Of a stretch of 53,744 bases of DNA, positions 7,173 through 41,582 are shown in pieces. The DNA lies in assembly GCA_020723165.1 (NCBI GenBank), contig DYJK01000010.1, forward strand, positions 1 to 53,744, in the 5' to 3' direction. The stretch is from Melioribacter roseus. Lineage in GTDB: Bacteria; Bacteroidota; Ignavibacteria; Ignavibacteriales; Melioribacteraceae. A program made the position numbers and the translations under genes. The stretch's first letter is position 1. Each line of letters opens with the position of its first letter. The notes under the pieces are model-generated. The model did no database searches. It was given only the letters and a program-made list of their open reading frames with translations, and had not been told where the DNA came from.

Positions 7173-9929
7173 TTAATTTTTTCTCTTATCTACGAACTCA
7201 GTTAAATAGTCATGGTATTCTTTAGGTAAATTTTTGAATAAAGATTCGCCCTCTTTACCATTATCTTTGGAGGAAATATTATTTATATAACCTTCTATTT
7301 TTTGTTTTACAGTGGTAGATAAAACTTCATCTTTTGATCCTACTATCATTTCTACGGCTTTATCAATATCCCAATTAGATTTTTGTAATGCTTTCAGACA
7401 TAGACCTTTTAAATGGTGAGAAAGTGTGTGAGAACCTTTTTTAAAACCTAGTTTTTCTTCACAAAGATTTATTTTGAAATTATTTTCCCTCAATACATTC
7501 AATTTTTTCAATTCAATTTCATTAAAGCTTTCGTTCAATATTCTGGATTGAACTTCTATTGTAATGGGTTTATTAAGTGCCGGAAAATATTTGGGGGAAA
7601 CAATTTGATTTCCTTCAATACGTGCACTTTCACAAGCAATTTCAATTAACACTTTTAATTCGGCAATGTTGCCATCAGAAAAATTGTGACTACGTAATAA
7701 GTTCATTGTATCTTCTGTCAACTGAAGAGTAATATTATTTTTTGTACAGTATAGTTTTATAAAATGATCCACTAATAAAGGTATATCATTTCCTCTCTCC
7801 CTCAATGGCGGAATCTCAACTTTATTAAAGCTACCCCCGATTCTTCTGTATAGGTCCTTTCTAAACAAACCCTCCTTTACTTTTTGTTCTAAATTTAAGT
7901 GTGAAGCAAATAAAAATCTTACATCAACTTGTATACTCCTAGATTTACCGGCTGCCGGATGAAAGTCAAGGCCGTCAACAGCTCTCAAAATTTGTGCTTG
8001 AGTTTCCAATGGTAAAGCATCAACATCATCAATCAGCAAGGTTCCTCCATTACACTCTTCAATTATTCCTTTCTGCCCGTTCTTATCAATTCCGAATATG
8101 CCGTGCCCAACACCATAACCAAAAAGTTTACCTAAAATAATCATAGGATCGGCAGCAGAAAATTCAGAAGCAGTGAAAACCTGATATGATTTTTTTGATC
8201 GCGGACTTAAAGTATGAATAACATATCCCAATGCTGATTTACCAACACCGGATTCACCGTAAATCCATGTTGGTATGCTCATTTGGCTCATTGGAACAAC
8301 AAATCTCAAAACTTTTAATATCTTGGGATCATTCCCGATTAACAAATTTCGTCTAACTTCTTTAAGAACCGGATATTCATCTTCATACATTTTTATTCTT
8401 TCTTCTAAAACTTTATCCGGTTCTTTTTCATACTCATGGCGCCAATATGTTGCAAGTTCTTTTTTTGCTTCGTTCAATTTTAAATTAACAACTTCAAGAT
8501 CGGCTACATATTTGTTAATCTTTTTATCTTTTTCGTTCAGCTCATCTGCTAAATTAAGAACTCTTTTAGATAGTGTTTGTATTTCATCAATTCTCGATGG
8601 AATTTTTTCTACGCTGTAATCTTGCTTTCCAATTTTTGATAAGGCCAAATTAAGCTCTTTCATAGGTTTTGCAATCCACCTTGCAAGTAAGAAAGATAAA
8701 ACTATAATCCCCAGTGACAAAAATATTGCAAGAAAAATTACACGGTTTTTTGAATCGTCTATTATCGCTTCTAATTCTTTAGATAATGTAGAAGATGTAT
8801 CCATAAATTTTTTAAGTGAGGTACCTACAGATACAGCGCCAAATATTCCGTACTTTTTATAAGATCCGGTTGAATAATAGATCGGGGCATAAGCACGCGT
8901 TCTAACAATACCATCGGTCTCACCATAAATACCCATCGATTTCATAGTAGTAATAGCTGTCTCGCCACGTTGTACTCTCTTTATAATAGCACTCATAGGT
9001 TCATTTGTGTAAATATCCTTCAGGCGCCAATCCATCATCAGTAAATTAATCGGGATTGTACCGGCGCTATATTTCCATTTGGGAGTGTACTCCGAAAGAG
9101 GCTCAACTTGATTCCCTTCTTTATCTAAACCGCGGATATCCCATAATTTCTGATGGGCGATTATCCATCCTTCATCATCAACAATATAAGTATAGCTACC
9201 AGTCTTGTACTTTTTAACAAAGGCATCTTTATCAATTATTTGATAATCAACAAAATCTAAAAGATGAACATAATCTAACGCAATCATATAAATACCGGCA
9301 AAGTTGCCTGACGAATCAAATATTTTCTTACAAAATCGAACTATCCCCTCAAAAGCTTTTCCTTTCTCAAGTTGTTCCTGACGACTTATGTACCATCCGG
9401 TTAAGTGTGTCACATAAATACTATCGGCGCTATTTTGGGTATCGATAAAATATGTTTCTGAAAGATAGGTTGTATTACCTGGAAGACTTACATTTTTTAA
9501 TTGGGGTTCTTTAATAATAGCACCCTCTACAATTTTTATCTTTTCATTTCCGTACTTATCTATTAAAGCAACCTCTTTGTATAACCGTTTCTTCGTTTTC
9601 AACGAATTCAGATATCTGAAATTATCCTCAGCAAATTTTTTATATGATTCAGAGTTCTTAGAAATATTGCTTAGATCTAATAAATCCGATTCGCAACTAT
9701 AAAGAAAGTCTGATGCTCGTTTTGCCAAATTTTGTGCATATGATTTGTAAAGCTGAGTTGTTTGTTCCTTAAATGTGGTTTCAATTGTCTTGGTAGCTAA
9801 CTGCCTTGTATAATTAAGACTATAAATGGATTGGCTTATTAGAATGATTATCGGTATTAATGAGAATAGAGCAAATACAATTAGAAGAACTAAAAAAATA
9901 TTGATTTTGAATTTAAATTTTACCGGCAT
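7173..9929 (-). CDS. Membrane-bound Cache-HAMP-AAA+ regulator, sigma54-activator family with atypical GAFTGA loop
   Basis: This is a 918-residue one-component receptor-regulator. Order: TM helix 11-33; a large periplasmic dCache-like sensor (about 40-390); TM helix 398-417; HAMP (about 418-465); coiled coil (about 465-500); an AAA+ domain of the NtrC class (about 525-770); and a C-terminal helical region that is not a clear Fis helix-turn-helix. Walker A is GESGVGKS (558-565), Walker B is LLIDDVD (631-637), and the arginine-finger region FRKDLYRR is intact. The loop that normally reads GAFTGA and contacts sigma54 reads GHGIFGI here (about 608-614), and the usual YPWPGNVREL motif is HNFSDGNIAEL. 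It may therefore have lost normal sigma54 coupling or use a modified contact. Its position points to control of the phosphoesterase/TonB genes by an extracellular small molecule. Confidence 0.85.
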   Translation of the reverse strand: MPVKFKFKINIFLVLLIVFALFSLIPIIILISQSIYSLNYTRQLATKTIETTFKEQTTQLYKSYAQNLAKRASDFLYSCESDLLDLSNISKNSESYKKFAEDNFRYLNSLKTKKRLYKEVALIDKYGNEKIKIVEGAIIKEPQLKNVSLPGNTTYLSETYFIDTQNSADSIYVTHLTGWYISRQEQLEKGKAFEGIVRFCKKIFDSSGNFAGIYMIALDYVHLLDFVDYQIIDKDAFVKKYKTGSYTYIVDDEGWIIAHQKLWDIRGLDKEGNQVEPLSEYTPKWKYSAGTIPINLLMMDWRLKDIYTNEPMSAIIKRVQRGETAITTMKSMGIYGETDGIVRTRAYAPIYYSTGSYKKYGIFGAVSVGTSLKKFMDTSSTLSKELEAIIDDSKNRVIFLAIFLSLGIIVLSFLLARWIAKPMKELNLALSKIGKQDYSVEKIPSRIDEIQTLSKRVLNLADELNEKDKKINKYVADLEVVNLKLNEAKKELATYWRHEYEKEPDKVLEERIKMYEDEYPVLKEVRRNLLIGNDPKILKVLRFVVPMSQMSIPTWIYGESGVGKSALGYVIHTLSPRSKKSYQVFTASEFSAADPMIILGKLFGYGVGHGIFGIDKNGQKGIIEECNGGTLLIDDVDALPLETQAQILRAVDGLDFHPAAGKSRSIQVDVRFLFASHLNLEQKVKEGLFRKDLYRRIGGSFNKVEIPPLRERGNDIPLLVDHFIKLYCTKNNITLQLTEDTMNLLRSHNFSDGNIAELKVLIEIACESARIEGNQIVSPKYFPALNKPITIEVQSRILNESFNEIELKKLNVLRENNFKINLCEEKLGFKKGSHTLSHHLKGLCLKALQKSNWDIDKAVEMIVGSKDEVLSTTVKQKIEGYINNISSKDNGKEGESLFKNLPKEYHDYLTEFVDKRKN

Positions 9930-10142
9930 ATTTAGTTGCCCAATGCATTTCTGTTTAGAAATCTACAAATATATTTCTATTGCCTCAAGAAAACTTGAAA
10001 TCAAACTGTTATAATTCTTTTAACAGCTATAAAATGTTCAAACTATTGTAATCGATACATTAAATAGTAATAGTATGTAATTAAAGATAAGAAGTATATT
10101 CTGGGGAACTGGTTTTTATAAAATTTAGGTTGACTAATGATT

Positions 10143-11177
10143 TTAATTCGATAATTCTACACCTAGAAGTAAATTCCCACCTTCAAATAAGTAATCCTTA
10201 TATACTAAATCGTTATGGAAATAACTTCCCTTGATATACAATTCTATCGTATCTGATAAATCATATCCAATTTTTAAACTAATTTGATTTTCCAGATTGA
10301 AGGGTGAATAAAGAATTGAGATTCGTTCATCAACTTCTTTTCTTTTTATGTCTCTTAAACAATAATCGACCAGTAAAAATATTGAAAAACCGTTAGCCAT
10401 AAGTTTACCGGCTACCATTCTAATAGAGTGCTCGAAAGAAGGATATTCTGTTCTGTTTGAAATATGCTGAAGTAATCTATATTGGCCGTTAATTACAAAG
10501 TCCTTTAAATAATAGAGTTCAACCTCCGGGCCTACTCTATAGCCGGTAATCTTCTCTTTGGTTTTAATAAAGTTGTTCGTAATCTCTCCCTCAATAGTAA
10601 ATCTCTCAACATAAAATCCATAACCGAATCTTAGATAAGATCCCAAAAAGGAATTTGCCTTCCCCTCAAAATAAATAATATCATGGTTCTGATCTGTTCC
10701 GGAATCAATGGTTTGATAAGCGTAACCGAGAAGAAATGCAATGGGAATATTTTCAATCCAATAAAATACGGTATTACCTTGCAATGAAAAGATATCGTAA
10801 CTCAAATCGAAGTCTTTGCCGGAGATTTTATTAAACTGTCTTTTAATATTCAAACCCCAATCAAAATTCTTTTCACGGCGTTGTAAATCCCCGTTTGCTC
10901 TAAAGGTTAACGTTGAGAGCTCGTTTTTAAGCGTGTAAAATTCCGGTCTCAGTTTTAGGTCTGCAAATAATTCAGTGTTCTCCATTTTATATTTGTAACC
11001 AAACTTACCTTCAAGAGCAAAAAGTAAATCGTTTTTGTTTGTAAGAATATCGCCGGCAGATTTATAAAACCCGGTTTCAATATTCCCTTGTAAATTAATT
11101 TGGGCTGTTACAACAGAGAATGTAATAGTAGTGAGTAAAATAGCGGTATGTGATAATTTTAACACAAGGCGGTTCAC
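10143..11177 (-). CDS. Outer-membrane beta-barrel protein of unknown function
   Basis: The 344-residue protein has a signal peptide (about 1-25, cleavage after VTAQ) followed by alternating amphipathic strands throughout, typical of a 12- to 16-strand outer-membrane barrel. I do not recognise a family. The start codon overlaps the stop of the upstream coiled-coil gene by four bases (ATGA), so translation is coupled. It is the last gene of a four-gene operon headed by a histidine kinase and an NtrC-type regulator. That arrangement suggests the two envelope proteins either feed a signal to the kinase or are its main output. The neighbouring genes give no clue to a transported substrate. Confidence 0.75.
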   Translation of the reverse strand: MNRLVLKLSHTAILLTTITFSVVTAQINLQGNIETGFYKSAGDILTNKNDLLFALEGKFGYKYKMENTELFADLKLRPEFYTLKNELSTLTFRANGDLQRREKNFDWGLNIKRQFNKISGKDFDLSYDIFSLQGNTVFYWIENIPIAFLLGYAYQTIDSGTDQNHDIIYFEGKANSFLGSYLRFGYGFYVERFTIEGEITNNFIKTKEKITGYRVGPEVELYYLKDFVINGQYRLLQHISNRTEYPSFEHSIRMVAGKLMANGFSIFLLVDYCLRDIKRKEVDERISILYSPFNLENQISLKIGYDLSDTIELYIKGSYFHNDLVYKDYLFEGGNLLLGVELSN

Positions 11178-30738: not shown

Positions 30739-31764
30739 ATGAACGGTAAAACCATTCTCATTACCGGCGGTACCGGTTCTTTCGGTAAAAAATTTATTGA
30801 AACTGTCCTAAAGAAATATAATCCTAAAAAAATAATTATCTACAGCCGAGATGAATTGAAACAATACGAGATGCAGCAAGATTCACGTTACAAAAAAGAT
30901 AATGTATTAACCCGTTATTTTATCGGTGATGTAAGGGACGAAAAACGATTGGCGATGGCAATGACTGACGTTGATATCGTTATTCATGCTGCTGCCCTGA
31001 AACAAGTACCGGCTGCCGAATACAATCCTTTCGAAGCTGTGAAGACAAATGTTATAGGTGGGCAGAATGTTATCGATGCAAGTTTTTCTGCCGGTGTAAA
31101 AAAAATAATTGCACTCAGCACGGATAAAGCCGCCGCTCCTATAAACCTATACGGTGCAACAAAACTAACATCTGACAAACTTTTCATAGCGGCAAACAAT
31201 TACCGAGGATGGAAAGATATAAAATTCTCCGTAGTCAGGTATGGAAATGTTATGGGCAGCCGCGGTTCGGTAATTCCCTTCTTCATTGAAAAAGCAAAAA
31301 GGGGTACGCTTCCTATAACGGACGAACGAATGACCCGTTTTAATATTACTTTACAAGAAGGTGTTGACTTTGTTCTTATGGCACTCAATAAAATGTGGGG
31401 CGGTGAACTTTTTGTTCCCAAAATTCCCTCTTACAATATTTTAGATTTGGCAAAAGCTATTGCGCCAAACGCAAAACTCGAAAATGTCGGTATTCGCCCT
31501 GGCGAAAAATTACACGAGGAAATGATAACCGTTACCGATGCAATTAACACTGTAGAGTTCGATGATTACTACGTTATACTTCCTTCGACACCGGTTTGGG
31601 ATATAAATAAATTCCGGAAAGAGAGTAATAGAAAAGAAGGAAAGTTTTGTCAATACGGATTCAGTTACAACAGCGGCACAAATGCAAAGTTTTTAACTGT
31701 TGATGAACTTCGTTCGTTAATAAAAAATAATGTTGATGGCGGAGAAATAACTTATGGGGATTAA
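30739..31764 (+). CDS. pseB: UDP-N-acetylglucosamine 4,6-dehydratase (inverting), PseB
   Basis: This enzyme performs the first step of pseudaminic acid synthesis: UDP-GlcNAc is dehydrated at C4/C6 with inversion at C5 to a 4-keto-6-deoxy sugar. The 341-residue extended SDR has GGTGSFG (9-15), the RDELKQYEMQQ block typical of PseB/FlaA1-type dehydratases, GDVRDEKRL, HAAALKQVPAAEYNP (a strong family motif) and the YGATK catalytic pair. Length matches short soluble PseB rather than the membrane-bound long forms. A GAGGAAC ribosome binding site precedes it. The next gene, pseC, begins two bases after the stop. Confidence is high because the whole downstream pathway is present. Confidence 0.95.
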   Translation: MNGKTILITGGTGSFGKKFIETVLKKYNPKKIIIYSRDELKQYEMQQDSRYKKDNVLTRYFIGDVRDEKRLAMAMTDVDIVIHAAALKQVPAAEYNPFEAVKTNVIGGQNVIDASFSAGVKKIIALSTDKAAAPINLYGATKLTSDKLFIAANNYRGWKDIKFSVVRYGNVMGSRGSVIPFFIEKAKRGTLPITDERMTRFNITLQEGVDFVLMALNKMWGGELFVPKIPSYNILDLAKAIAPNAKLENVGIRPGEKLHEEMITVTDAINTVEFDDYYVILPSTPVWDINKFRKESNRKEGKFCQYGFSYNSGTNAKFLTVDELRSLIKNNVDGGEITYGD

Positions 31765-31766
31765 TA

Positions 31767-32945
31767 TTGAATAAATTTTTTTCATATGGCAAACAAACAA
31801 TTACCCAAGACGACATCGACGCTGTCATTGAAATACTTAAATCCGATTGGATGACACAAGGACCAACAATTGCAAAATTCGAAAAAGTGCTGTGTGAAAA
31901 GTTTGGAGGTAAATATGCTTCTGTTGTCGCCAATGGAACTGCCGCACTTCATTTAATTGCTTTAGGACTTGAATGGGCAAAAGATGATATTATTATTACA
32001 TCACCAATTACTTTTCTTGCAAGCGCAAATTGTGCTATATATGTGGGAGCTAAAGTTGATTTTGTAGATATTGATTCAAAGACATATACAATCGATCCGG
32101 AAAAACTCGAAGAAAAATTAAAACTCTACGCGGCACAAAATAAAAAGGTTAAAGCTGTTGTTGCTGTTGATTATGCCGGTCATCCGTGTAATTGGGATGC
32201 ACTTAAAACATTAAAAGAAAAATTTGGATTTCAATTGATCAATGATTACTGCCATGCATTAGGCGCAGAATATAATAATGATGCTCAATATGCAATTAAA
32301 TATGCTGAGGCTGTAAATTTTAGTTTTCATCCGGTTAAACATATCACAACGGGTGAGGGCGGTACAGTACTTACTAACAATGAAAAACTTGATAAAAGAA
32401 TTAAAACATTCCGTACACATGGAATGACTAAGGATGAATTCTTTCTTGAAAAAAATGACGGTCCTTGGTACTACGAAATGCATGAAGTCGGTTTCAATTA
32501 CCGCATCACCGATCTTCAATGCGCACTTGGAATCAGCCAGCTTTCTAAATTAGATAAATTTATAGCGCGCAGAAGTGAGATAGCAAGGTTTTATGACGAT
32601 ATCTTTTCAAAAGATGACCGATTTATTTTTCCTTACGTTTCGAAAAATGTTAAACATGCTTATCACCTTTATCCTCTGCAAATAAAATTTGATCAACTAA
32701 AAATTTCTAGAAAAGATTTTTTTGCGAAACTCAAAGAACAAAGAATCATCGGGCAAGTTCATTATATACCGGTTCATCTTCAGCCGTATTACAGAAATAA
32801 TTTCGGATTTAAACCGGGTGATTTTCCGGTAGCTGAGAGATTTTATGAACGGGAGATTTCCATCCCGATGTATCCTTCTCTTACAGATGAAGATCTAAAT
32901 TACATTTCATCAGCAATCATCGAAACATTGAATAAATCAGTATGA
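31767..32945 (+). CDS. pseC: UDP-4-amino-4,6-dideoxy-N-acetyl-beta-L-altrosamine transaminase, PseC
   Basis: This PLP-dependent aminotransferase of the DegT/DnrJ family adds the 4-amino group to the product of PseB. The 392-residue protein has the family start FFSYGKQTITQDDIDAVIEILKS, the ANGTAALHL phosphate-binding region, and FHPVKHITTGEGG, in which the Lys forms the PLP Schiff base. GFNYRITDLQCALGISQL follows, another typical block. The only suitable start is a TTG at 31767, two bases after pseB; the GGGGA at about 31756 serves as ribosome binding site. The stop overlaps the start of pseG by four bases. Confidence 0.95.
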   Translation: MNKFFSYGKQTITQDDIDAVIEILKSDWMTQGPTIAKFEKVLCEKFGGKYASVVANGTAALHLIALGLEWAKDDIIITSPITFLASANCAIYVGAKVDFVDIDSKTYTIDPEKLEEKLKLYAAQNKKVKAVVAVDYAGHPCNWDALKTLKEKFGFQLINDYCHALGAEYNNDAQYAIKYAEAVNFSFHPVKHITTGEGGTVLTNNEKLDKRIKTFRTHGMTKDEFFLEKNDGPWYYEMHEVGFNYRITDLQCALGISQLSKLDKFIARRSEIARFYDDIFSKDDRFIFPYVSKNVKHAYHLYPLQIKFDQLKISRKDFFAKLKEQRIIGQVHYIPVHLQPYYRNNFGFKPGDFPVAERFYEREISIPMYPSLTDEDLNYISSAIIETLNKSV

Positions 32946-33925
32946 AAGTTTCGATCATAACAGAAGGATTTCAGAATACCGGGTACGGACACATCACGCG
33001 TTGTCTTTCACTTTACCAGGCATTTGAAGAAAGGAATATTTTTCCTACTCTATACATCAACGGTGATGAAACATCTAAATTATATGCGCCTAATTCTCAA
33101 TTAAAGATTATCGATTGGATTAAGTATCCTACCAAGCTTGCCGGTGAAATTAAGAACTCCGATATATTGATTATTGATTCATACATTGGCGGTATTGATC
33201 ACTATAAAAATTTTTCGATGCTTTCCAAAATCTCTTTGTTCATTGATGATAACCTCCGCATTGAATACCCAAACGGAATAATTCTAAACGGGACCATAAA
33301 TGCAGAAACCTTACCATACAAAAAAGAACCTGGTAAAGAATATCTGTTAGGCGCTCAATATATTCCTATCAGAAAAGAATTCTGGAATCTGCAGCAGAGA
33401 AAAATTAATCGGGATATTTCTTCCATTCTTATTACTTACGGCGGACAAGATGTTAAAGATTTAACATTGCCAACATTAAAAACTATCGAAGAGATTTTCC
33501 CGGATGTAAAGATTAACGTTGTACTAGGTAACAATAAAAATGTAAGAGATAAAATTTCAAAAACAGAGAATGTTACTGTATGGCATTCTATTGAAGCGGA
33601 ACAAATGTTAGGGTTAATGTTAAATTCAGACATTGCAATTACCGCTGCCGGACAAACTCTTTACGAACTTGCTGTTACCGGCACACCGACTATTGCCGTT
33701 GCTGTAGCAGACAATCAAAGAAACAATATACTTGGATGGAAGAAGTGCGGGTTTTTAATAAACCCAATTTTTCACAATGACATAAATTTACATAGGAAAA
33801 TAATTGAGCAGATAAATACTTTACACTCCGTCCAAGTAAGAAAGAAATTAAGTTATGCCGGTGAAAAAAACGTTAATGGACAGGGAGCGCGATCGACTAT
33901 CGCCTTGCTGTTGTCAAAATTTTAA
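32942..33925 (+). CDS. pseG: UDP-2,4-diacetamido-2,4,6-trideoxy-beta-L-altropyranose hydrolase, PseG
   Basis: PseG removes UDP from the fully acetylated intermediate, giving 6-deoxy-AltdiNAc for condensation by PseI. The 327-residue GT-B-like protein has the catalytic-site motif GYGHITRCLSLYQAF (about 14-28), DILIIDSYIGG (about 78-88), LITYGGQD (about 163-170) and the nucleotide-binding ITAAGQTLYELAVTGTPTIAV block near the C-terminus. It follows pseC with a four-base overlap. The order pseB-pseC-pseG is compact, and the acetyltransferase that should act before PseG is found two genes further on. Confidence 0.93.
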   Translation: MKVSIITEGFQNTGYGHITRCLSLYQAFEERNIFPTLYINGDETSKLYAPNSQLKIIDWIKYPTKLAGEIKNSDILIIDSYIGGIDHYKNFSMLSKISLFIDDNLRIEYPNGIILNGTINAETLPYKKEPGKEYLLGAQYIPIRKEFWNLQQRKINRDISSILITYGGQDVKDLTLPTLKTIEEIFPDVKINVVLGNNKNVRDKISKTENVTVWHSIEAEQMLGLMLNSDIAITAAGQTLYELAVTGTPTIAVAVADNQRNNILGWKKCGFLINPIFHNDINLHRKIIEQINTLHSVQVRKKLSYAGEKNVNGQGARSTIALLLSKF

Positions 33926-33936
33926 TCTAGAGTGTT

Positions 33937-34821
33937 ATGACAACTATTCCAAAAACAAAAAAAATTAGAGAATATAGGCAGCTCTCAAGCAAACCGACTC
34001 AAATAGTGCTGAAGAAATATTATCAAAATATCTATTTTCAACAAAGCAAAGGATCATATAGTAAAAAATATTCTGATGAAGAAATAAAATATTTTCATAA
34101 TAATCTTAGAATGATAGAATGCAGTATAATTAAAATTCTAAAAAGCGAACTAACCGGAAAAACTTTTCTTGATTTGGGCTGCGGTGAAGGTTGGGCGTTA
34201 AATCATTTTTACAATGCTGGATGTAAAGTTATGGGGGTTGATTACACTTCTTATGGAATAAAAAAATTCAACAAGGGTATGTTGAATTATTTTAAGCAAA
34301 AATCCCTGGATGAGTTTATATCTAATTCATTTAAGAATAAGATAAAGTATGATATAATAAATATGACCAATATAATCGAACATGTACTTAAGCCTGAGAA
34401 ACTATTGATAGCGGTAAAAAAAATTCTTAATAATAATAGTGTCCTATGTATAACTTTCCCGAATGATTTTTCCCCGTTGCAAAGTGTGCTACTGAAAAAG
34501 AAAAAGATATCAAATGAATTTTGGATAGCTTTCCCTGATCATATTTCCTACTTCAACAAAAAGTCATTTATCAAACTTTCATCAAGATTAGGATTTAAAC
34601 CGTTGTTGTTTTTAGCAGATTTCCCTATAGATTTGTTTTTACTAAATGATTATTCTAATTATGTAAACGACAGTCTCAAGGGTAAGCAAGCACATTTTTC
34701 CCGGATTGATTTTGTAAATTTACTATGTAATTTAAACATAACTGAAACTTTGAATTTATTTTTAACCCTTGGGAAAATAGGACTAGGTAGAAATCTTACA
34801 GTATTTTTGAAGAAAAAATGA
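33937..34821 (+). CDS. SAM-dependent class I methyltransferase
   Basis: The 294-residue cytoplasmic methyltransferase has the class I SAM-binding motif FLDLGCGEGWALNHFY (motif I, about residues 74-89), VMGVDY (motif II) and NMTNIIEHVLKPEKLL (motif IV/post). The acceptor is not obvious. It lies between pseG and pseH, overlapping pseH by four bases, and so belongs to the nonulosonic acid unit. Together with the FkbH-like protein and acyl carrier protein it could methylate a glyceroyl group attached to pseudaminic acid, or the sugar itself. By eye this gene is AT-richer than pseB-pseG, which hints at separate acquisition. Confidence 0.82.
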   Translation: MTTIPKTKKIREYRQLSSKPTQIVLKKYYQNIYFQQSKGSYSKKYSDEEIKYFHNNLRMIECSIIKILKSELTGKTFLDLGCGEGWALNHFYNAGCKVMGVDYTSYGIKKFNKGMLNYFKQKSLDEFISNSFKNKIKYDIINMTNIIEHVLKPEKLLIAVKKILNNNSVLCITFPNDFSPLQSVLLKKKKISNEFWIAFPDHISYFNKKSFIKLSSRLGFKPLLFLADFPIDLFLLNDYSNYVNDSLKGKQAHFSRIDFVNLLCNLNITETLNLFLTLGKIGLGRNLTVFLKKK

Positions 34822-35393
34822 AAAATTTATTAAAAGGAAATTTAATTTCTTTTGTTCCAGTTAAAGCAAGTCATTTAGCTTTAATGGTTAAATGGAGAAA
34901 TGATCCGAATGTTTCCAATATGTTATTCGACCGGAGAAAGTTTACACTTGCCAAACAAAAAAAGTGGTTTGAAGAATCAAAGAAAAGTAAATCACGTAAA
35001 CAATTTATTATAATTGAAAATAAAAACAGCACCCCAATTGGCGCTATTAATCTAATGAATATTGACAAAAAAAATCTGCACTGCGATTGGGGTTACTATA
35101 TCGGTGAAATTTCTTTTAGGATGGGTGGTTATGCCATTGAAGCAGAATATATGATACTAAAATATGCTTTCGAAATACTACGAATGAATAAAGTTTATTG
35201 TCAAACTTTTTCTTACAATAATAAGGTGATTAGTATTCATACTAAATTCGGTTTCAAAACTGACGGTGTATTGAGACAACATTACAAAGAAAATAATTCC
35301 TATGCAGATATAGTAATAATGTCAATATTAAAAGAAGAATTTTACACAACATCAAAAGAAATAGTTCATTTATTAAATTATTATAAAAGATAG
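34818..35393 (+). CDS. pseH: GNAT N-acyltransferase, PseH-like
   Basis: PseH acetylates the 4-amino group of the PseC product before PseG acts. The 191-residue GNAT protein has the expected start (LISFVPVKASHLALMVKWRNDPNVSNMLF, very like PseH/RimJ-type proteins), the acyl-CoA binding core (MGGYAIEAEYMILKYAF) and the C-terminal NKVISIHTKFGFKTDGVLRQH block common in PseH. It overlaps the methyltransferase by four bases. Since an acyl carrier protein and FkbH-like loader lie three genes downstream, this enzyme could use an acyl-ACP donor instead of acetyl-CoA; that is speculation. Confidence 0.85.
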   Translation: MKNLLKGNLISFVPVKASHLALMVKWRNDPNVSNMLFDRRKFTLAKQKKWFEESKKSKSRKQFIIIENKNSTPIGAINLMNIDKKNLHCDWGYYIGEISFRMGGYAIEAEYMILKYAFEILRMNKVYCQTFSYNNKVISIHTKFGFKTDGVLRQHYKENNSYADIVIMSILKEEFYTTSKEIVHLLNYYKR

Positions 35394-35394
35394 T

Positions 35395-35799
35395 ATGATA
35401 ATTCATCACATTGGTTTAGTAGTAAAAAATATTGAGGATCACTTTACAAAGTATTTTAAAAATGCTCTTGGTTATAATGAAATTTCTCAAATTTATAATG
35501 ATAATATCATAGGTGTTAGGGTCGCTTTTGTCAATCTCAATAATTTAATCAATATTGAACTTGTGGAACCATTAAACAGTGATTCCCCGGTTAGTAACTA
35601 TCTACAAAAACGAGGTCAAACATTACACCATCTTTGTTTTGAAGTTAATAATTTAGAAACAGAATGTGAACGATTAAGAGACAACAATTATTTTATTACT
35701 ATGCCGCCAACTCCAGCTGTTGCATTTGGAGGAAGAAAAGTAGCTTTCTTGATGTCTAAAGATGAAAATTACCTAATAGAATTATTACAAGAAAAATGA
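35395..35799 (+). CDS. VOC-superfamily (glyoxalase/methylmalonyl-CoA epimerase-like) protein
   Basis: The 134-residue single-domain VOC protein has two beta-alpha-beta-beta-beta modules. Likely metal ligands include His in MIIHHIGLVV (about residue 5), His in QTLHHLCFEV, and a Glu in the final strand (LIELLQEK). Pattern and length are closest to methylmalonyl-CoA epimerases, which handle CoA- or carrier-bound acids. It starts one base after pseH and overlaps the FkbH-like gene by four bases, so a role in the acyl-carrier-linked side branch is likely. The substrate is unknown. Confidence 0.75.
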   Translation: MIIHHIGLVVKNIEDHFTKYFKNALGYNEISQIYNDNIIGVRVAFVNLNNLINIELVEPLNSDSPVSNYLQKRGQTLHHLCFEVNNLETECERLRDNNYFITMPPTPAVAFGGRKVAFLMSKDENYLIELLQEK

Positions 35800-37481
35800 C
35801 TATCGCAATACTTACAAGTTATAATTCAGATCTTCTTAAAAAGGATTTCGAAAAATTTCTCTACTCAAAAAATATCGATATAACTTGCTGGTGGAATAGT
35901 TTTAATTTACAAGAGAAAGCGATTTTTGATCTTACCAGTCCTTTTTATTTGGTTAAACCAGATATTGCCCTAATGCATTTTGAAATTGAATGGTTACTCG
36001 GAGATATTATTCATGATATTTTAAAGTATAATTTACATGATAGGAAAAGCAAACTTGAAGAAGCTAAAATAAAATTTTCATCATTGGTAAGCCTAATTTC
36101 CAATAATCTTCCTAACACAAAAATTGTAATTGAGAATTTCATTTTTCGCAATAAAACATACCTTGGCCACTTAGATATCAATATTGAAATGGGATTATAT
36201 GAAATCATTAATTCATTTAATACCTTTTTGCTTACAATAAAAAGTCAGTTCCCCGATAAGATTATATTACACGACTATTCATCACTAATAGAAAATATAG
36301 GTAGAAACCATTGTTATGATAACCGGATTTTTCATCTAGCTAAAAACCCATTTGCCCGGTCGTTCTATCAAAAACTTTTCGAACATTATTATTCTGTTAT
36401 TTCTATAGTTACTCTCCCCCGTAAAAAATGTTTAGTTGTAGACTTAGACAACACGTTATGGGGTGGCATTATCGGGCAAGATGGTATTGACAATATTGAA
36501 CTCGGCAACAGCGGAATTGGTGAAGCTTATGTTCAGTTTCAAAAGTATCTATTAAACTATTATCGTAAAGGAATTTTCCTTTCTGTCTGCAGCAAAAATA
36601 ATTATAACGATGCTATTGAGGTGATTGAAAAACATCCCGATATGATCCTTAGAAAAGAATATTTTTCCGCCTTAAAGATAAACTGGTCAGATAAGGTAAC
36701 CAATCTTAAAGCTATCGCAAAAGATTTAAATATTGGAATAGATTCATTAGTATTTATTGACGATAATCCGGCAGAATGTGAGCTGGTTAAGCAACAGCTT
36801 CCAGAAGTTGAAGTTATAAATTTAACCGGCGATCCTGATAATTATATTAATCAAATGAATTCGGTGGATTCATTAAATACCATTTTTCTTACCGAAGAAG
36901 ATCTCAACCGTAACAGAATGTATGTTGCTGATGAAAAAAGAAAAGAGCTGGAACATAGCTATACAAACTTGGACGAATATTTAACATCTCTTGAAATGCA
37001 AGCATTTATTAAGGTAAACAACCCAACACATGCACAACGGGTTTCACAGTTAACACAAAAAACTAACCAGTTCAATCTCACTACCAAACGATATACAATT
37101 GAAGATATAAAAAATTTCTTAACTGATAACAAACACAGAATATATACTCTGCACCTGGTAGATAAGTTTGGCGATAATGGAATTGTAGTGATGGCTATCG
37201 TTGAGCTAAAAAATGACAAATGGATTATTGATACCTTTTTAATGAGTTGTAGGGTAATCGGTCGTCAAGCTGAAACCGCACTATTAAACTCTATTCTTGA
37301 AGATGCGACAAAATCTAATATAAATATTGTACGCGGTGAGTTCATAAAAACAAAGAAAAATGAACCAGCAGAGGATTTTTATTCTAAGCACGGATTCACT
37401 AGTTTTTCAACCAACGAATGGAGTATAAAATTTCCATTTACAATAAACAAACATTTTGTTAAAATTAATAGAGAGTTGTAA
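35796..37481 (+). CDS. FkbH-like HAD-family protein (glyceroyl/acyl carrier loading)
   Basis: The 561-residue protein has an N-terminal alpha/beta domain (about 1-200), a HAD-IIIC domain with the nucleophile motif DLDNTLWGG (D216 and D218 catalytic) and FIDDNPAE, and a C-terminal GNAT-like domain (about 400-561, with NQFNLTTKRYT and MSCRVIGRQ). The architecture is that of FkbH, which in polyketide pathways takes D-1,3-bisphosphoglycerate, removes phosphate and loads glyceroyl onto a carrier protein. The stop overlaps by one base the start of a free acyl carrier protein gene, exactly the partner expected. In this setting it probably makes glyceroyl-ACP for decoration of the nonulosonic acid. 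That use is inferred from context. Confidence 0.88.
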   Translation: MTIAILTSYNSDLLKKDFEKFLYSKNIDITCWWNSFNLQEKAIFDLTSPFYLVKPDIALMHFEIEWLLGDIIHDILKYNLHDRKSKLEEAKIKFSSLVSLISNNLPNTKIVIENFIFRNKTYLGHLDINIEMGLYEIINSFNTFLLTIKSQFPDKIILHDYSSLIENIGRNHCYDNRIFHLAKNPFARSFYQKLFEHYYSVISIVTLPRKKCLVVDLDNTLWGGIIGQDGIDNIELGNSGIGEAYVQFQKYLLNYYRKGIFLSVCSKNNYNDAIEVIEKHPDMILRKEYFSALKINWSDKVTNLKAIAKDLNIGIDSLVFIDDNPAECELVKQQLPEVEVINLTGDPDNYINQMNSVDSLNTIFLTEEDLNRNRMYVADEKRKELEHSYTNLDEYLTSLEMQAFIKVNNPTHAQRVSQLTQKTNQFNLTTKRYTIEDIKNFLTDNKHRIYTLHLVDKFGDNGIVVMAIVELKNDKWIIDTFLMSCRVIGRQAETALLNSILEDATKSNINIVRGEFIKTKKNEPAEDFYSKHGFTSFSTNEWSIKFPFTINKHFVKINREL

Positions 37482-37714
37482 TGCAAATAGATCCAAAATT
37501 AATTATGATAATTGCAAAGCATTTTAATCTTAAACAAAAAGATATAAATCTAAGCACATCTAAAGATTTAATAGAAGAGTGGGATTCACTTGAACATATA
37601 AAACTAATTTTAGAGATAGAAGAAGAATTTAAAATAAAATTTCCACTTGATATAGTACCTTATATTACATCTGTTAAAGCTATCCAAAACGAAATAGAAA
37701 AATTAAAAGCTTAA
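37481..37714 (+). CDS. Discrete acyl carrier protein
   Basis: The 77-residue four-helix carrier has the phosphopantetheine attachment Ser36 in the EEWDSLEHIKLILEIEEEF motif. It is distinct from housekeeping AcpP (DSLD/EL) in sequence and sits within the glycan operon, overlapping the FkbH-like gene by one base and ending one base before pseI. It should carry the C3 unit loaded by the FkbH-like protein. A dedicated phosphopantetheinyl transferase is not in the window. Confidence 0.88.
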   Translation: MQIDPKLIMIIAKHFNLKQKDINLSTSKDLIEEWDSLEHIKLILEIEEEFKIKFPLDIVPYITSVKAIQNEIEKLKA

Positions 37715-37715
37715 A

Positions 37716-38768
37716 ATGAATAATCCCCTGGTCCAGATCGGAAATTTTATAATTGGCAACAATTCTAAAACGTTCATAATAGCAGAACTCTCCGCAAATC
37801 ATAATCAGGATTTTGATATTGCTATTAAAACAATTAAAGCTGCTAAAGAAAGTGGAGCTGATGCTATCAAACTTCAGACTTACACACCAGATACCATCAC
37901 GTTAGACTGTAAGAATGAATATTTTCAAATTAAACAAGGGACCATTTGGGACGGGACTACACTATACCAACTATACCAGAAAGCATATACGCCATGGGAA
38001 TGGCAGCCTAAATTAAAACTATATGCTGAAGAATTAGGATTGATTTGTTTCTCTTCGCCTTTTGATAAAAGTGCTGTTGATTTTCTTGAAAATATGGATG
38101 TACCAGCTTATAAAATTGCATCGTTTGAAATAGTTGATATTCCACTAATTGAATACACAGCATCTAAAGGTAAGCCCATCATTATATCTACCGGTATTGC
38201 TCTTGAAGATGATATACAAGAGGCAATTGATGCATGCAAACGTATGGATAACAATCAGATCATTCTCTTAAAATGCACGTCCGAATACCCGACACCAATT
38301 GAAGATGCTAACTTAAATTCAATCCCATACCTTAGAGAAAAGTTTGGCTTACCGGTTGGTTTATCAGATCATACTACCGGTACATCCGTACCAACAATTG
38401 CTGTTTCACTTGGAGCTTGTATAATAGAAAAACATTTCATTCTTGATAGAACTATCAGCAGTCCTGACGCCAGATTTTCTCTCACTCCTAATCTATTTAA
38501 AGAGATGGTTAATTCTGTAAGGGATGCAGAAAAAGCATTGGGAAAATCATCTTTGTTTCTTTCTGAAAAGGTATTAAAAAGTAAAGAACATTCCCGTTCA
38601 CTTTTTGCTGTAAAAGATATTAAAGAAGGAGAACTTTTTACGGAAGAGAATATTAAATCGATCCGTCCGGCGTTTGGGTTACATCCTCGGTATTTAAAAC
38701 AACTTCTAGGAAAATTATCGAAACGAAATATCAAAAGAGGAACACCTTTAAATGAAGAAGATCTTTAA
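37716..38768 (+). CDS. pseI: Pseudaminic acid synthase, PseI (NeuB family)
   Basis: PseI condenses 6-deoxy-AltdiNAc with phosphoenolpyruvate to make pseudaminic acid. The 350-residue protein has the NeuB TIM barrel with AELSANHNQDFDIA (about 24-37), GADAIKLQTYTPDTIT (about 49-64), and the PseI-type TIWDGTTLYQLYQKAYTPW segment rather than the sialic acid synthase equivalent. SDHTTG and EKHFILDR metal and PEP motifs follow. A C-terminal SAF (antifreeze-like) domain is present (about 288-350). The last 17 bases overlap a lipoprotein gene. The subfamily assignment is good because pseB, pseC, pseG and pseH are all adjacent. Confidence 0.95.
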   Translation: MNNPLVQIGNFIIGNNSKTFIIAELSANHNQDFDIAIKTIKAAKESGADAIKLQTYTPDTITLDCKNEYFQIKQGTIWDGTTLYQLYQKAYTPWEWQPKLKLYAEELGLICFSSPFDKSAVDFLENMDVPAYKIASFEIVDIPLIEYTASKGKPIIISTGIALEDDIQEAIDACKRMDNNQIILLKCTSEYPTPIEDANLNSIPYLREKFGLPVGLSDHTTGTSVPTIAVSLGACIIEKHFILDRTISSPDARFSLTPNLFKEMVNSVRDAEKALGKSSLFLSEKVLKSKEHSRSLFAVKDIKEGELFTEENIKSIRPAFGLHPRYLKQLLGKLSKRNIKRGTPLNEEDL

Positions 38769-39723
38769 TTCAGCAGCATTAATATTGCACAAGCTAAAAT
38801 ACCTATCCGCTTTATTTACAATCCTAATATTACAGCTTTCTTGCTCTGAAACAACAAGTTGGGAAACAGATATCTCCTGGAATGATTATTCGGGCAACCC
38901 CATTTTAACATCAGAAAACACTAAATCACCTTATGGTCCTTATTTTGGTAGAGTATTATTTGACAATGGAAAATTCAAAATGTGGTTTTCTAATAGTCAG
39001 GGAAGCGATAAATATTATGTAGGTTATGCTGAATCTGACAATGGATTAAGCTGGGCTGTAATTAATAATGCTGTTATTGAACCGGGACCCGAAGGTGCCT
39101 GGGATAGTTATGGTGTTCATGCTGGTGCAATTATTAAAGAAAATGGAATTTTTAAAATGTATTATACCGGGCAATCAAAAGCTAACGATCCAGATAATAG
39201 AAAAATAGGTTTGGCAACTTCGTTAGACGGTATTTCTTGGACTAAATTCCCTGAATCAGTAACTGATCAGATTAATATCATCGGTTACTCAACACATATT
39301 ATTAAAGTGATGGGAGTTTATTATTTATACTATGGTAACCATTTACAAATTAGCGTGGCAAAATCTAGTGACGGGCTTAATTGGAAGAAAATCAAAAATT
39401 CTATAATTACTGCTACTTATGATTGGGAAGGCAATCGGGTTCTTTCATGCACTGTTATTTATGAACACAATAAATTTAAAATGCTTTATTCAAACAGTAG
39501 TTTATTCAATGCCTTTGGATACGCTGAATCTAATGACGGTATATACTGGATTAAGAAAAATTCCCCGGTTTTTGATTATAATGAAACGTCAAACCAATGG
39601 CCTTTTGATATCAGATACCCTTATTTAGTAAAAGCTAACAAAACATATTTTATTTTTTATTCAACTGTGTCACAATACCACGAAAGAAAAATAGGTGTAG
39701 CTACAACAACTTCTTTGTATTAA
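38752..39723 (+). CDS. Lipoprotein with five-bladed-propeller glycosidase-like fold (GH43/GH32/GH130-like)
   Basis: The 323-residue protein has an N-terminal signal with an imperfect lipobox (QLSC, Cys31) and a propeller of repeated blades of the kind FDNGKFKMWFSNSQ, KYYVGYAESDNGLSW, NGIFKMYYTGQS, RKIGLATSLDGISWTKF, VYYLYYGNHL, NKFKMLYSNSS and TYFIFYSTVS. These repeats are typical of GH43/GH32/GH130-type proteins, but I cannot place the three acidic catalytic residues with confidence, so activity is unproven. It overlaps pseI by 17 bases and is thus made together with the sugar synthase, odd for an exported protein. It may trim or bind the finished glycan at the surface. Confidence 0.7.
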   Translation: MKKIFNSAALILHKLKYLSALFTILILQLSCSETTSWETDISWNDYSGNPILTSENTKSPYGPYFGRVLFDNGKFKMWFSNSQGSDKYYVGYAESDNGLSWAVINNAVIEPGPEGAWDSYGVHAGAIIKENGIFKMYYTGQSKANDPDNRKIGLATSLDGISWTKFPESVTDQINIIGYSTHIIKVMGVYYLYYGNHLQISVAKSSDGLNWKKIKNSIITATYDWEGNRVLSCTVIYEHNKFKMLYSNSSLFNAFGYAESNDGIYWIKKNSPVFDYNETSNQWPFDIRYPYLVKANKTYFIFYSTVSQYHERKIGVATTTSLY

Positions 39724-39863
39724 TAAACAAATAACATAATGCATCTAAGCAGTAAATATAATATTGACTATTATCACCTATGAGAGACTCTATTATTAGG
39801 AACAACGAGTTTAATTTATAACTCATAAATTCTAAAAAAAACTTATAAATAATTGAAAGTTTT

Positions 39864-40616
39864 ATGAAAGGTTTTATAATTATTGCCATCATTCAGGCCC
39901 GTTTCGGTTCAACACGTTTGCCGGGCAAAATATTTAAAGACCTTTCCGGCAAACCGGTGCTATGGCATGTTGTGAACCGGCTTTCATATTCCAAACTTTG
40001 TAACAAAGTAATTGTTGCAACAACTACCGAAATTGAAGACGATCAAACAGAAAATTTCTGTGTTGAGCATAATATTCCATACTACCGCGGAAGTTCCGAT
40101 AATGTTCTTTCCCGTTATTACGAAACAGCAAAAGTTTTTGGTGCAGAGATTGTAATTCGAATTACTTCCGACTGCCCTTTAATTGATCCCATTATACTTG
40201 ATAAGATGATAGATGATTTTCTCATTACCAATAAATCAGAACAACTTGATTATTTAAGCAATTCAATCGTGCGTACTTATCCTCGTGGTTTGGATGTTGA
40301 AATATTTTCTTTTGAGGCTCTGGACAAAACATACAAACAAGCAACACTGCCTTACGAATTTGAACATGTTACTCCGTACATTTACCAGCACCCCGATTTA
40401 TTCAAATTAAAAAACTTTGCAAATGACAAAAATCTATCTTTCCATAGATGGACTGTTGATACATCGGAAGATTTTAGTTTAATCAAAAAAATTTATGATG
40501 AACTCTACATACCGGGAAAAATATTTTTACTTAATGATATATTAAAACTGTTCGATAAAAACCCTGAACTAATTAAAATTAATCAGAACATTAAACAAAA
40601 AAGTCTCAGGGAGTAA
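39864..40616 (+). CDS. SpsF-like cytidylyltransferase, probable CMP-pseudaminate synthase
   Basis: The 250-residue enzyme of the SpsF/CMP-KDO synthetase family starts with the nucleotide-binding motif IIAIIQARFGSTRLPGKIF (6-24), followed by VIVATTTEIEDDQTENFC, YYRGSSDNVLSRYY and RITSDCPLIDP. It should activate pseudaminic acid with CTP, the last step before transfer. Classical PseF is of the CMP-NeuAc synthetase type; an SpsF-type protein in that place is a variation known from spore-coat-type clusters. A 140-base gap separates it from the preceding lipoprotein gene, so it may have its own promoter; the next gene begins directly after its stop. Confidence 0.82.
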   Translation: MKGFIIIAIIQARFGSTRLPGKIFKDLSGKPVLWHVVNRLSYSKLCNKVIVATTTEIEDDQTENFCVEHNIPYYRGSSDNVLSRYYETAKVFGAEIVIRITSDCPLIDPIILDKMIDDFLITNKSEQLDYLSNSIVRTYPRGLDVEIFSFEALDKTYKQATLPYEFEHVTPYIYQHPDLFKLKNFANDKNLSFHRWTVDTSEDFSLIKKIYDELYIPGKIFLLNDILKLFDKNPELIKINQNIKQKSLRE

Positions 40617-41582
40617 ATGAAAATATCACGAAGAGATTTTGTTAAAACCGGCTCAATATTTAGTGGTGGATTAATACTAAATAGCGCTCTACCCCAAAAT
40701 TTATTTCCTAAATCCTTGATCGAAGGTAAGAAACCAATCGTCCTATCAACATGGGCACCTAACATAAAAGCAAATGAAAAGGCAATTGAAATATTACTGA
40801 ATGATAAATCATCGCTTGATGCAATCGAAGAAGGAATCAAGGTAACGGAAGCAGACCCAAACGATCATTCGGTTGGATATGGTGGTCTCCCGGATGCGGA
40901 AGGAATTGTTACGCTCGATGCTTCAATAATGGATTGGAATGGCAATGCCGGTTCTGTTGCATTTCTTCAGAATATAATGCACCCGATTTCAGTCGCGAGA
41001 ATGGTGATGGAAAAAACTTCTCATGTAATGCTTGCCGGCGAAGGTGCTAAAAAATTCGCTCTGCAAAATGGATTCAAGGAAGAAAATTTATTAACTGAAG
41101 AAGCAAAACAATCATGGCTGAATTGGAAACAAACCCAAAACAAGAATGAAAATCACGATACAATTGGAATGCTTGCTATAGATAATTTCGGAAATATGAG
41201 CGGCGGTGTTTCAACAAGCGGACTTGCATTCAAACTACATGGACGTGTCGGCGATTCACCAATCATCGGTGCAGCTATGTTTGTTGATAACGAAGTGGGC
41301 GGCGCAGTTGCAACCGGTAACGGAGAATTTGTAATGCGTACGCTCGGTGCTTTCCTAATCGTAGAAAAAATGCGAGAAGGTCTATCTTCACAAAAGGCAT
41401 GTGAGTTTGCTATTGAGCGGATTTACAAAACACACAAGGACCTTTCAAACATGAATGTAAGCTATCTTGCTTTATCAAAAACCGGGGAGCTTGGCGCTTA
41501 TTCATTAAAATCAGGGTTCACATACTGTTACACAACGCAAAAGGAGAATAAATCTTACACCAGTGATTTTCTGATGAAATAG
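40617..41582 (+). CDS. Tat-exported glycosylasparaginase / isoaspartyl peptidase family (Ntn hydrolase)
   Basis: This Ntn hydrolase self-cleaves to expose a catalytic Thr and hydrolyses the GlcNAc-Asn bond (glycosylasparaginase) or isoaspartyl peptides. The 321-residue protein has a perfect twin-arginine signal (SRRDFVK at 4-10, then a hydrophobic stretch), so it is exported folded. The autocleavage site is HDTIGMLAID with nucleophile Thr182, and substrate-side residues GRVGDSP and ATGNGE follow as in glycosylasparaginases. HDT argues for the glycosylasparaginase branch rather than the plant-type asparaginase (GT). It starts at the base after the cytidylyltransferase stop. A role in turnover of N-linked glycopeptides outside the cytoplasm is inferred. 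Confidence 0.85.
   Translation: MKISRRDFVKTGSIFSGGLILNSALPQNLFPKSLIEGKKPIVLSTWAPNIKANEKAIEILLNDKSSLDAIEEGIKVTEADPNDHSVGYGGLPDAEGIVTLDASIMDWNGNAGSVAFLQNIMHPISVARMVMEKTSHVMLAGEGAKKFALQNGFKEENLLTEEAKQSWLNWKQTQNKNENHDTIGMLAIDNFGNMSGGVSTSGLAFKLHGRVGDSPIIGAAMFVDNEVGGAVATGNGEFVMRTLGAFLIVEKMREGLSSQKACEFAIERIYKTHKDLSNMNVSYLALSKTGELGAYSLKSGFTYCYTTQKENKSYTSDFLMK

Follow-up and report, generated by a model that had tools for sequence, protein, structure and literature searches.

The 53,744-nucleotide (nt) contig DYJK01000010.1 of Melioribacter roseus (GenBank assembly GCA_020723165.1), the whole of which we call the window, carries a pseudaminic acid locus at positions 30739–40616. All of its genes lie on the forward strand, in the order PseB, PseC, PseG, a methyltransferase (MT), PseH, a VOC-fold enzyme, FkbH, a discrete acyl carrier protein (ACP), PseI, a GH130-like protein and an SpsF-like cytidylyltransferase. 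MT, PseH, VOC, FkbH and ACP form a five-gene block between PseG and PseI. We give a probability of about one half to the reading that this operon makes a pseudaminic acid in which the 7-N-acetyl group is exchanged for a glyceric-acid-type acyl group, by way of an imported block that replaced a GNAT domain.

Gene content of the locus

We scored window proteins with NCBIfam (TIGR) models, which have curated cut-offs, and scanned 20 of them with Pfam models, which have gathering scores. Identities in the list are to a genus-mate that has the same operon.

30739..31764, +, PseB, UDP-GlcNAc 4,6-dehydratase (inverting); TIGR03589, 519.7 bits (cut-off 407.75); 86% identity
31767..32945, +, PseC, C4 aminotransferase; TIGR03588, 489.4 bits (cut-off 423.5); 79% identity
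32942..33925, +, PseG, UDP-sugar hydrolase of 327 amino acids, without the C-terminal GNAT domain of its relatives; TIGR03590, 138.1 bits (below the cut-off of 153.55)
33937..34821, +, S-adenosylmethionine-dependent MT, whose family also occurs in PseI clusters that lack FkbH; PF13489
34818..35393, +, PseH-type GNAT, proposed N-acyltransferase of the cassette; TIGR03585, 107.3 bits (cut-off 93.1); outside the clade of the replaced GNAT domains
35395..35799, +, VOC-fold enzyme with likeness to methylmalonyl-CoA epimerase/glyoxalase; four aligned H/E/H/E positions retained
35796..37481, +, FkbH (FkbH_N, HAD-IIIC phosphatase and C-terminal region), proposed glyceroyl-ACP synthase; TIGR01686, 334.6 bits (cut-off 146.65)
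37481..37714, +, discrete ACP of 77 amino acids with a WDSL motif, Ser36 being the expected phosphopantetheine site; Pfam PP-binding, 19.1 (just missing the gathering score of 20.8)
37716..38768, +, PseI, pseudaminic acid synthase; TIGR03586, 505.6 bits (cut-off 340.25); 71% identity
38752..39723, +, GH130-like protein, probably outside the cassette; PF04041, 49.8 bits; relative in locus L168
39864..40616, +, SpsF-like cytidylyltransferase in the PseF position; CTP_transf_3 (PF02348), 109.9 bits; 69% identity
29799..30686, +, MptE-like protein upstream of the run, a candidate pseudaminic acid transferase; PF01973, below the gathering score

Adjacent genes overlap or touch all the way from MT to PseI, with junctions of −4, +1, −4, −1 and +1 nt. 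Family scores and coordinates confirmed that the pse genes, MT, VOC, FkbH and ACP lie where an earlier note, written by a model from the DNA, had placed them. Its ‘SpsF-type’ label for the last gene is fair, as that protein scores only 29.3 bits against the PseF equivalog (cut-off 205.7), which no protein exceeds genome-wide. The layout given in the note held in that all the named genes are in the run, but PseH belongs to the cassette itself, flanked by MT and VOC, and the GH130-like gene parts PseI from the cytidylyltransferase.

The window FkbH has the motifs DLDNT, CSKN, FIDDN and SCR and matches PDB entry 3slr at 172 bits. It is the single copy found in the assembly (3.8 Mb, 98% complete), and a second FkbH-type pathway is therefore not seen in this genome. 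The VOC protein reaches 81.4 bits against methylmalonyl-CoA epimerase (TIGR03081), under the cut-off of 114.95; its four metal-ligand-like positions are retained in 14 of the 14 sequences compared. PseH passes the PseH equivalog cut-off, a score that is silent on the acyl donor. The window PseG is collinear with, and 62% identical to, that of the genus-mate, which likewise falls below the TIGR03590 cut-off (149.3 bits). Family scans of the block’s proteins found no ketosynthase or dehydrogenase families.

The acyltransferase slot beside PseG

To place the locus among its relatives, we used 391 genomes of the class that includes the window, 48 of which have PseI over the curated cut-off and 32 an FkbH match at 1e-20. 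We fetched 40 PseI neighbourhoods and then seven more, which together make up 47 of the 48 places over the cut-off besides the window (G589 was left out). Counts for the PseG slot use the 22 of the 40 loci with PseG of at least 200 bits; the other 18, in which PseG is weak, cut off or missing, were dropped. Nearly all of these good PseG proteins (19 of 22) are PseG–GNAT fusions of 486–495 amino acids with the GNAT domain at the C terminus, and the fusion occurs in 18 of the 19 members of the window’s family with good PseG. In the remaining three loci, PseG has its normal length and the gene after it encodes a GNAT (one locus) or a formyltransferase (two loci). In loci L168 and L175 the fusion is accompanied by a further, stand-alone GNAT. 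One of the dropped loci, L180, also from the window’s family, has a weak PseG with neither a fused nor an adjacent GNAT recognized. The fusion is probably a two-step pseudaminic enzyme, and we infer from the place and fold of the GNAT domain that it makes the N4-acetyl group.

The window PseG aligns with its fused relatives over its 327 amino acids and ends at the linker where their GNAT domain starts. In the genus-mate (G019), in which no FkbH was found, the DNA match to the window runs to position 33791 and resumes at 37735; between these ends lie 614 nt in the genus-mate versus 3,943 nt in the window. The G+C contents of the five block genes are 0.285, 0.274, 0.291, 0.314 and 0.231, compared with 0.385 for PseB, 0.347 for PseC, 0.353 for PseG and 0.350 for PseI. 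The window PseH scores 107 bits against the PseH model, versus 35 for the native fused domain, and in a tree it falls outside the strongly supported clade of replaced GNAT domains; its own branches in that tree are weak, with a top identity to any other row of 30%. A direct comparison of the window PseH with the replaced domain gave a score of 7.9 bits (E 0.0035, among few sequences), and this match, together with the position outside the clade, ruled out the idea that PseH is a rescued copy of the lost domain. Taken together, the stop of the alignment, the gap in the genus-mate, the G+C content and the tree position suggest that the acetyltransferase domain of a PseG–GNAT fusion was lost to an incoming block that brought a PseH-type GNAT of its own. 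This replacement is the strongest evidence that we have, and it was beyond the reach of the earlier note.

The PseH slot also holds other enzymes. Four PseI loci have formyltransferases there by Pfam (L165:1397-2026, L167:1585-2187, L179:8862-9458 and L163:11190-11888), hinting at N-formyl pseudaminic acids. PseG is weaker in L163 and L167 than in the other two, and L163 has, besides the formyltransferase, a GNAT and a PIG-L deacetylase.

Several genes flank or interrupt the run outside the block. The GH130-like gene is wedged between PseI and the cytidylyltransferase, and its relative in L168 occupies the same place beside PseI; the genome of L168 (G035) has no FkbH match. In L171, L173, L174 and L180, kin of the upstream MptE-like protein lie some 2.5 kb or less from PseB. 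Right after the cytidylyltransferase begins an Asparaginase_2-family gene (window 40617-41582) with an export-signal-like start, which we do not count as part of the cassette because the DNA match to the genus-mate extends into it.

FkbH and ACP in other genomes

We compared the window with 57 other FkbH loci, which are those fetched, mostly best-scoring: 20 from 27 genomes, 14 more from 32 and 23 from 43. Several sit on contigs so short that the absence of a neighbour carries little weight. ACP lies within 3 kb of FkbH in 49 of the 57 and VOC in 27, all 27 of which also have ACP. In L083 and L037, whose FkbH proteins are closest to that of the window (42% and 41% identity), the 4-nt overlap of VOC and FkbH is retained. 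VOC–FkbH–ACP is a portable unit that is not dedicated to pseudaminic acid. The acyltransferase beside it is variously an MBOAT protein (L083 and L032), a hexapeptide protein (L037), a GNAT (L086) or, in Campylobacter jejuni, an AAC(3)-like protein. This variety suggests that the module feeds an acyl-ACP donor to whichever transferase is local, which in the window is PseH. The GNAT-like proteins of L201–L203 were not counted: their likeness is to the L212 protein only, L203 has no Pfam match and that of L212 is weak. In L035:8798-11882 and L084:8515-11586, FkbH, ACP and VOC stand by a small GNAT-looking gene among housekeeping-looking genes, outside sugar clusters.

A module this mobile could serve another sugar or lipid and sit in the pseudaminic operon by co-transcription only. 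The distribution of FkbH lends this some weight, as a PseI/NeuB-type gene lies within 7 kb of just four of the 57 other loci. The earlier note had named as a possible refutation the finding of the cassette away from nonulosonic acid genes, and this holds in part: 53 loci do lack a PseI/NeuB-type gene within 7 kb, though eight of those adjoin pseB/pseC. The co-occurrence of FkbH and pseI that it had proposed to look for was found in the window’s genome, the only one among the 391 to hold both FkbH and PseI over the cut-off. Against a chance association stand the overlapping or abutting genes from MT to PseI, the presence of PseH inside the block, the position of the block where the GNAT domain was and the FkbH–ACP pair in a legionaminic-type cluster of a second family member (L085). 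We therefore regard service to another product as improbable.

L085 comes from G584. This genome and G140 are two cases in the class, besides that of the window, in which we know a PseI/NeuB-type gene and FkbH to share one contig within reach; in G140 the two are 23 kb apart. Positions 1-13900 of L085 encode LegB, LegC, a NeuD-like protein, ACP, FkbH, a PIG-L deacetylase, a NeuB-type synthase and a PseG-like protein, with a PseF-like cytidylyltransferase further on. LegC is over its cut-off, NeuB and PseF are just below theirs and LegB is truncated by the contig end. FkbH–ACP here looks like part of a legionaminic-type pathway. Three Campylobacterota loci (L200, L205 and L210) have a PseI/NeuB-type gene less than 7 kb from FkbH and, with L085, suggest that FkbH–ACP has probably joined nonulosonic pathways more than once.

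We also considered the cassette as a wider trait of the window’s family and rejected this, as FkbH is over the cut-off in only 4 of 79 family genomes. The window and L085 are the two of these with a pseudaminic or legionaminic context; the FkbH contig of G942 is only 3.8 kb long, and G066 has no Pse gene in 20 kb. In the order around G143, FkbH occurs in 11 of 128 genomes, several of which were already in another genome set. Among plasmids, 109 records had FkbH-like matches, and no Pse match was found in the FkbH regions of the two records examined.

On pSymB of Sinorhizobium meliloti (L234, 3358-9239), a VOC gene, an MBOAT gene, a gene annotated as a TonB-dependent receptor, an ACP gene and an FkbH-like (HAD) gene lie together upstream of capsule genes. 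These share VOC, ACP and FkbH-like proteins with the window and differ in the acyltransferase, which is an MBOAT protein instead of a GNAT; no pseudaminic gene was matched in 17 kb. They are likely to be an acyl-ACP-fed module for polysaccharide acylation.

The predicted pathway and its counterparts

We hypothesize that an imported block took the place of the GNAT domain of a PseG–GNAT fusion and that the resulting operon would work in five steps. By family membership, PseB and PseC would make UDP-4-amino-4,6-dideoxy-AltNAc. FkbH, judging from the biochemistry of polyketide FkbH proteins, would draw D-glycerate from 1,3-bisphosphoglycerate and load it onto the discrete ACP. VOC may then act on the acyl group while it is bound to ACP, possibly by epimerizing it, which is the weakest step. 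The PseH-type GNAT, given its position in the cassette and the domain swap, would take the acyl group off ACP and attach it to the 4-amino group. Hydrolysis by PseG, condensation by PseI and CMP activation by the SpsF-like enzyme would yield CMP-Pse5Ac7Gra or a close variant. MT would methylate somewhere on the sugar or the acyl group, not necessarily on the glycerate. Because the slot sets the N4 acyl group of the UDP-sugar, which becomes N7 of pseudaminic acid, a 7-N-glyceroyl pseudaminic acid is predicted; we infer both the donor and the position of the acyl group from sequence.

This product has a counterpart in Tannerella forsythia, where Pse5Am7Gra carries an N-glyceroyl group on C7 of pseudaminic acid. 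Strain ATCC 43037 is reported to bear Pse5Am7Gra with the glyceroyl on N7, present already on the CMP-sugar, and the glyceroyl genes are described in print as unidentified (PMC6120980; PMC6388019). We tentatively propose, with less than even confidence, that the PseH slot is an interchangeable acyl socket, that import of GNAT–VOC–FkbH–ACP shifts the donor from acetyl-CoA to acyl-ACP and fixes the glyceroyl at N7, and that the same kinds of gene are those missing for Tannerella Pse5Am7Gra.

The closest known system is the flagellin glycosylation locus of C. jejuni, which we take to be the region from cj1293 to cj1317 and which we read in C. jejuni subsp. jejuni 414 (L127/L128). There the order is pseB, pseC, a Cj1295-like gene, an AAC(3)-like gene, ACP, MT, VOC, FkbH, FabH and ACP, with pseF, pseG, pseH and pseI further on. 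Both loci have ACP, MT, VOC and FkbH genes near pseB/pseC. C. jejuni has in addition the Cj1295-like, AAC(3)-like and FabH-like proteins and a second ACP, and it differs in its separate PseH gene, in an MT of another family and in the acyl group on N5. In strain NCTC 11168, N5 of pseudaminic acid bears a di-O-methylglyceroyl group; a Campylobacter paper links only Cj1295, a proposed deacylase, to the glyceroyl-type group, and cj1302 has been named in print as an fkbH-domain gene. FkbH is matched in 43 of 298 Campylobacterota genomes.

Together, the Campylobacter gene set and the Tannerella product are precedents that support the proposal of the earlier note that FkbH and ACP are a likely maker of glyceroyl-ACP on a pseudaminic pathway. 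The note cited the Campylobacter sugar but not the matching gene set of the C. jejuni locus, so that the co-occurrence as such is not new. What is new relative to Campylobacter is the arrangement, the probable position (N7) and the absence of the other Campylobacter genes. We rejected copying from Campylobacter as the origin of the window cassette: the MT family differs and no AAC(3)-type match was found.

The window could nevertheless work as Campylobacter does, with PseH as an ordinary acetyltransferase and a glyceroyl group from FkbH and ACP attached to N5 or a hydroxyl only once pseudaminic acid has been formed. Consistent with this, the C. jejuni locus has the same kinds of gene near pseB/pseC while keeping PseH separate, its glyceroyl group is on N5 and the window PseH retains a CoA-type loop. 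The Campylobacter-type set, however, comes with Cj1295-like and AAC(3)-like proteins where it stands beside pseB/pseC. Such an arrangement occurs in 8 of the 20 FkbH neighbourhoods from Campylobacterota, and VOC went unmatched in three of those eight. The window’s genome has no match to the AAC(3)-type family (Antibiotic_NAT) in a search that was positive in 5 of 14 control genomes, and no PIG-L or Cj1295-type family was found among the 20 window proteins scanned. The block, moreover, occupies the slot of the N4-acyltransferase domain. We consider late glyceroylation of this kind rather unlikely.

The acyl unit might instead be tailored, for example as an O-methylglyceroyl group formed on ACP with MT. 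MT abuts PseH in one run, the C. jejuni NCTC 11168 glycan is di-O-methylated and polyketide pathways are described as tailoring FkbH products (PMC7489565). The MT itself points elsewhere. It scores at most 29 bits against six BioC-like MTs of FkbH cassettes, the Campylobacter one included, which score 130–484 bits among themselves. A second family unites the window MT with those of L176, L218 and L217 (203–380 bits), and scores across the two families are at most 30 bits. Two of these kin, in L176 and L218, belong to PseI clusters in which MT precedes a GNAT and no FkbH was found, and the block has no dehydrogenase family. Given the separate family and these FkbH-free clusters, methylation of the glyceroyl group by the window MT, which the earlier note had suggested as a following step, is not indicated, and a tailored acyl unit seems quite improbable.

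MT gave the sole confident model among five made with AlphaFold (mean predicted local distance difference test score, 84.9), and its first structural matches span class I methyltransferases with many different functions, including NDP-sugar C-methyltransferases. MTs of the window type occur in 5 of the 391 genomes, one of them weak. The L217 protein (9505-10401) is an orphan relative with 60% identity and no Pse match on its 11.8 kb. The PseI clusters at L176:3243-11200 and L218:8663-14767 have no PseG match and encode MT, a GNAT and a HAD-family protein before PseI, possibly a PseG-independent route.

Other systems combine some of the same parts. Formation of glyceryl-ACP by FkbH and ACP has been proposed for polyketide pathways (PMC7489565). 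Tetronate and methoxymalonyl pathways have an FkbH-like enzyme and a discrete ACP, as the window does; the window block differs in having no ketosynthase or dehydrogenase families, with one FkbH found in the genome. Pseudaminic flagellar islands of Aeromonas (group II) hold pse genes and an ACP gene in one island; that ACP is accompanied by genes of fatty-acid type (3-oxoacyl-ACP reductase, an AMP-dependent synthetase, luxE and luxC), and the available part of the source does not name FkbH (PMC7874193). In a search mostly without subscription journals, we found no paper that assigns FkbH and ACP to pseudaminic acylation.

Several points weigh against a 7-N-glyceroyl product made through the imported block. 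The window PseH keeps an RxxGxA loop (RMGGYA), which is typical of CoA-using GNATs. This loop is seemingly missing in the GNAT or GNAT-like proteins near FkbH in L086, L043, L039 and L212, the last being only a weak GNAT match, and is kept in L029. PseH members that have been tested use acetyl-CoA, and the window GNAT passes the PseH cut-off; its use of acyl-ACP is a prediction from gene context. The glyceroyl group of C. jejuni NCTC 11168, as noted, sits on N5 and not N7. Lowish G+C content extends beyond the block, to the flippase (0.319), the MptE-like and GH130-like genes (0.328) and the cytidylyltransferase (0.339). The exact cassette of the window was seen once only. When the PseI threshold is relaxed, some PseI/NeuB-type gene turns up in 13 of the class’s 32 genomes with FkbH, and links between FkbH and nonulosonic acids therefore need not use the mechanism proposed here.

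For the glyceroylation of pseudaminic acid, the window supplies a compact candidate of five genes in which a single transferase stands out, and the genus-mate, with the same operon minus the cassette, is a natural control. If the acyl-socket reading is true, the operon would place a carrier-protein-fed N-acyltransferase within the core pseudaminic pathway. The acetyl, formyl and FkbH-type variants suggest that pseudaminic acid pathways exchange their N4-acyl step as a unit, which, if true, would aid the prediction of surface sugars from genomes.

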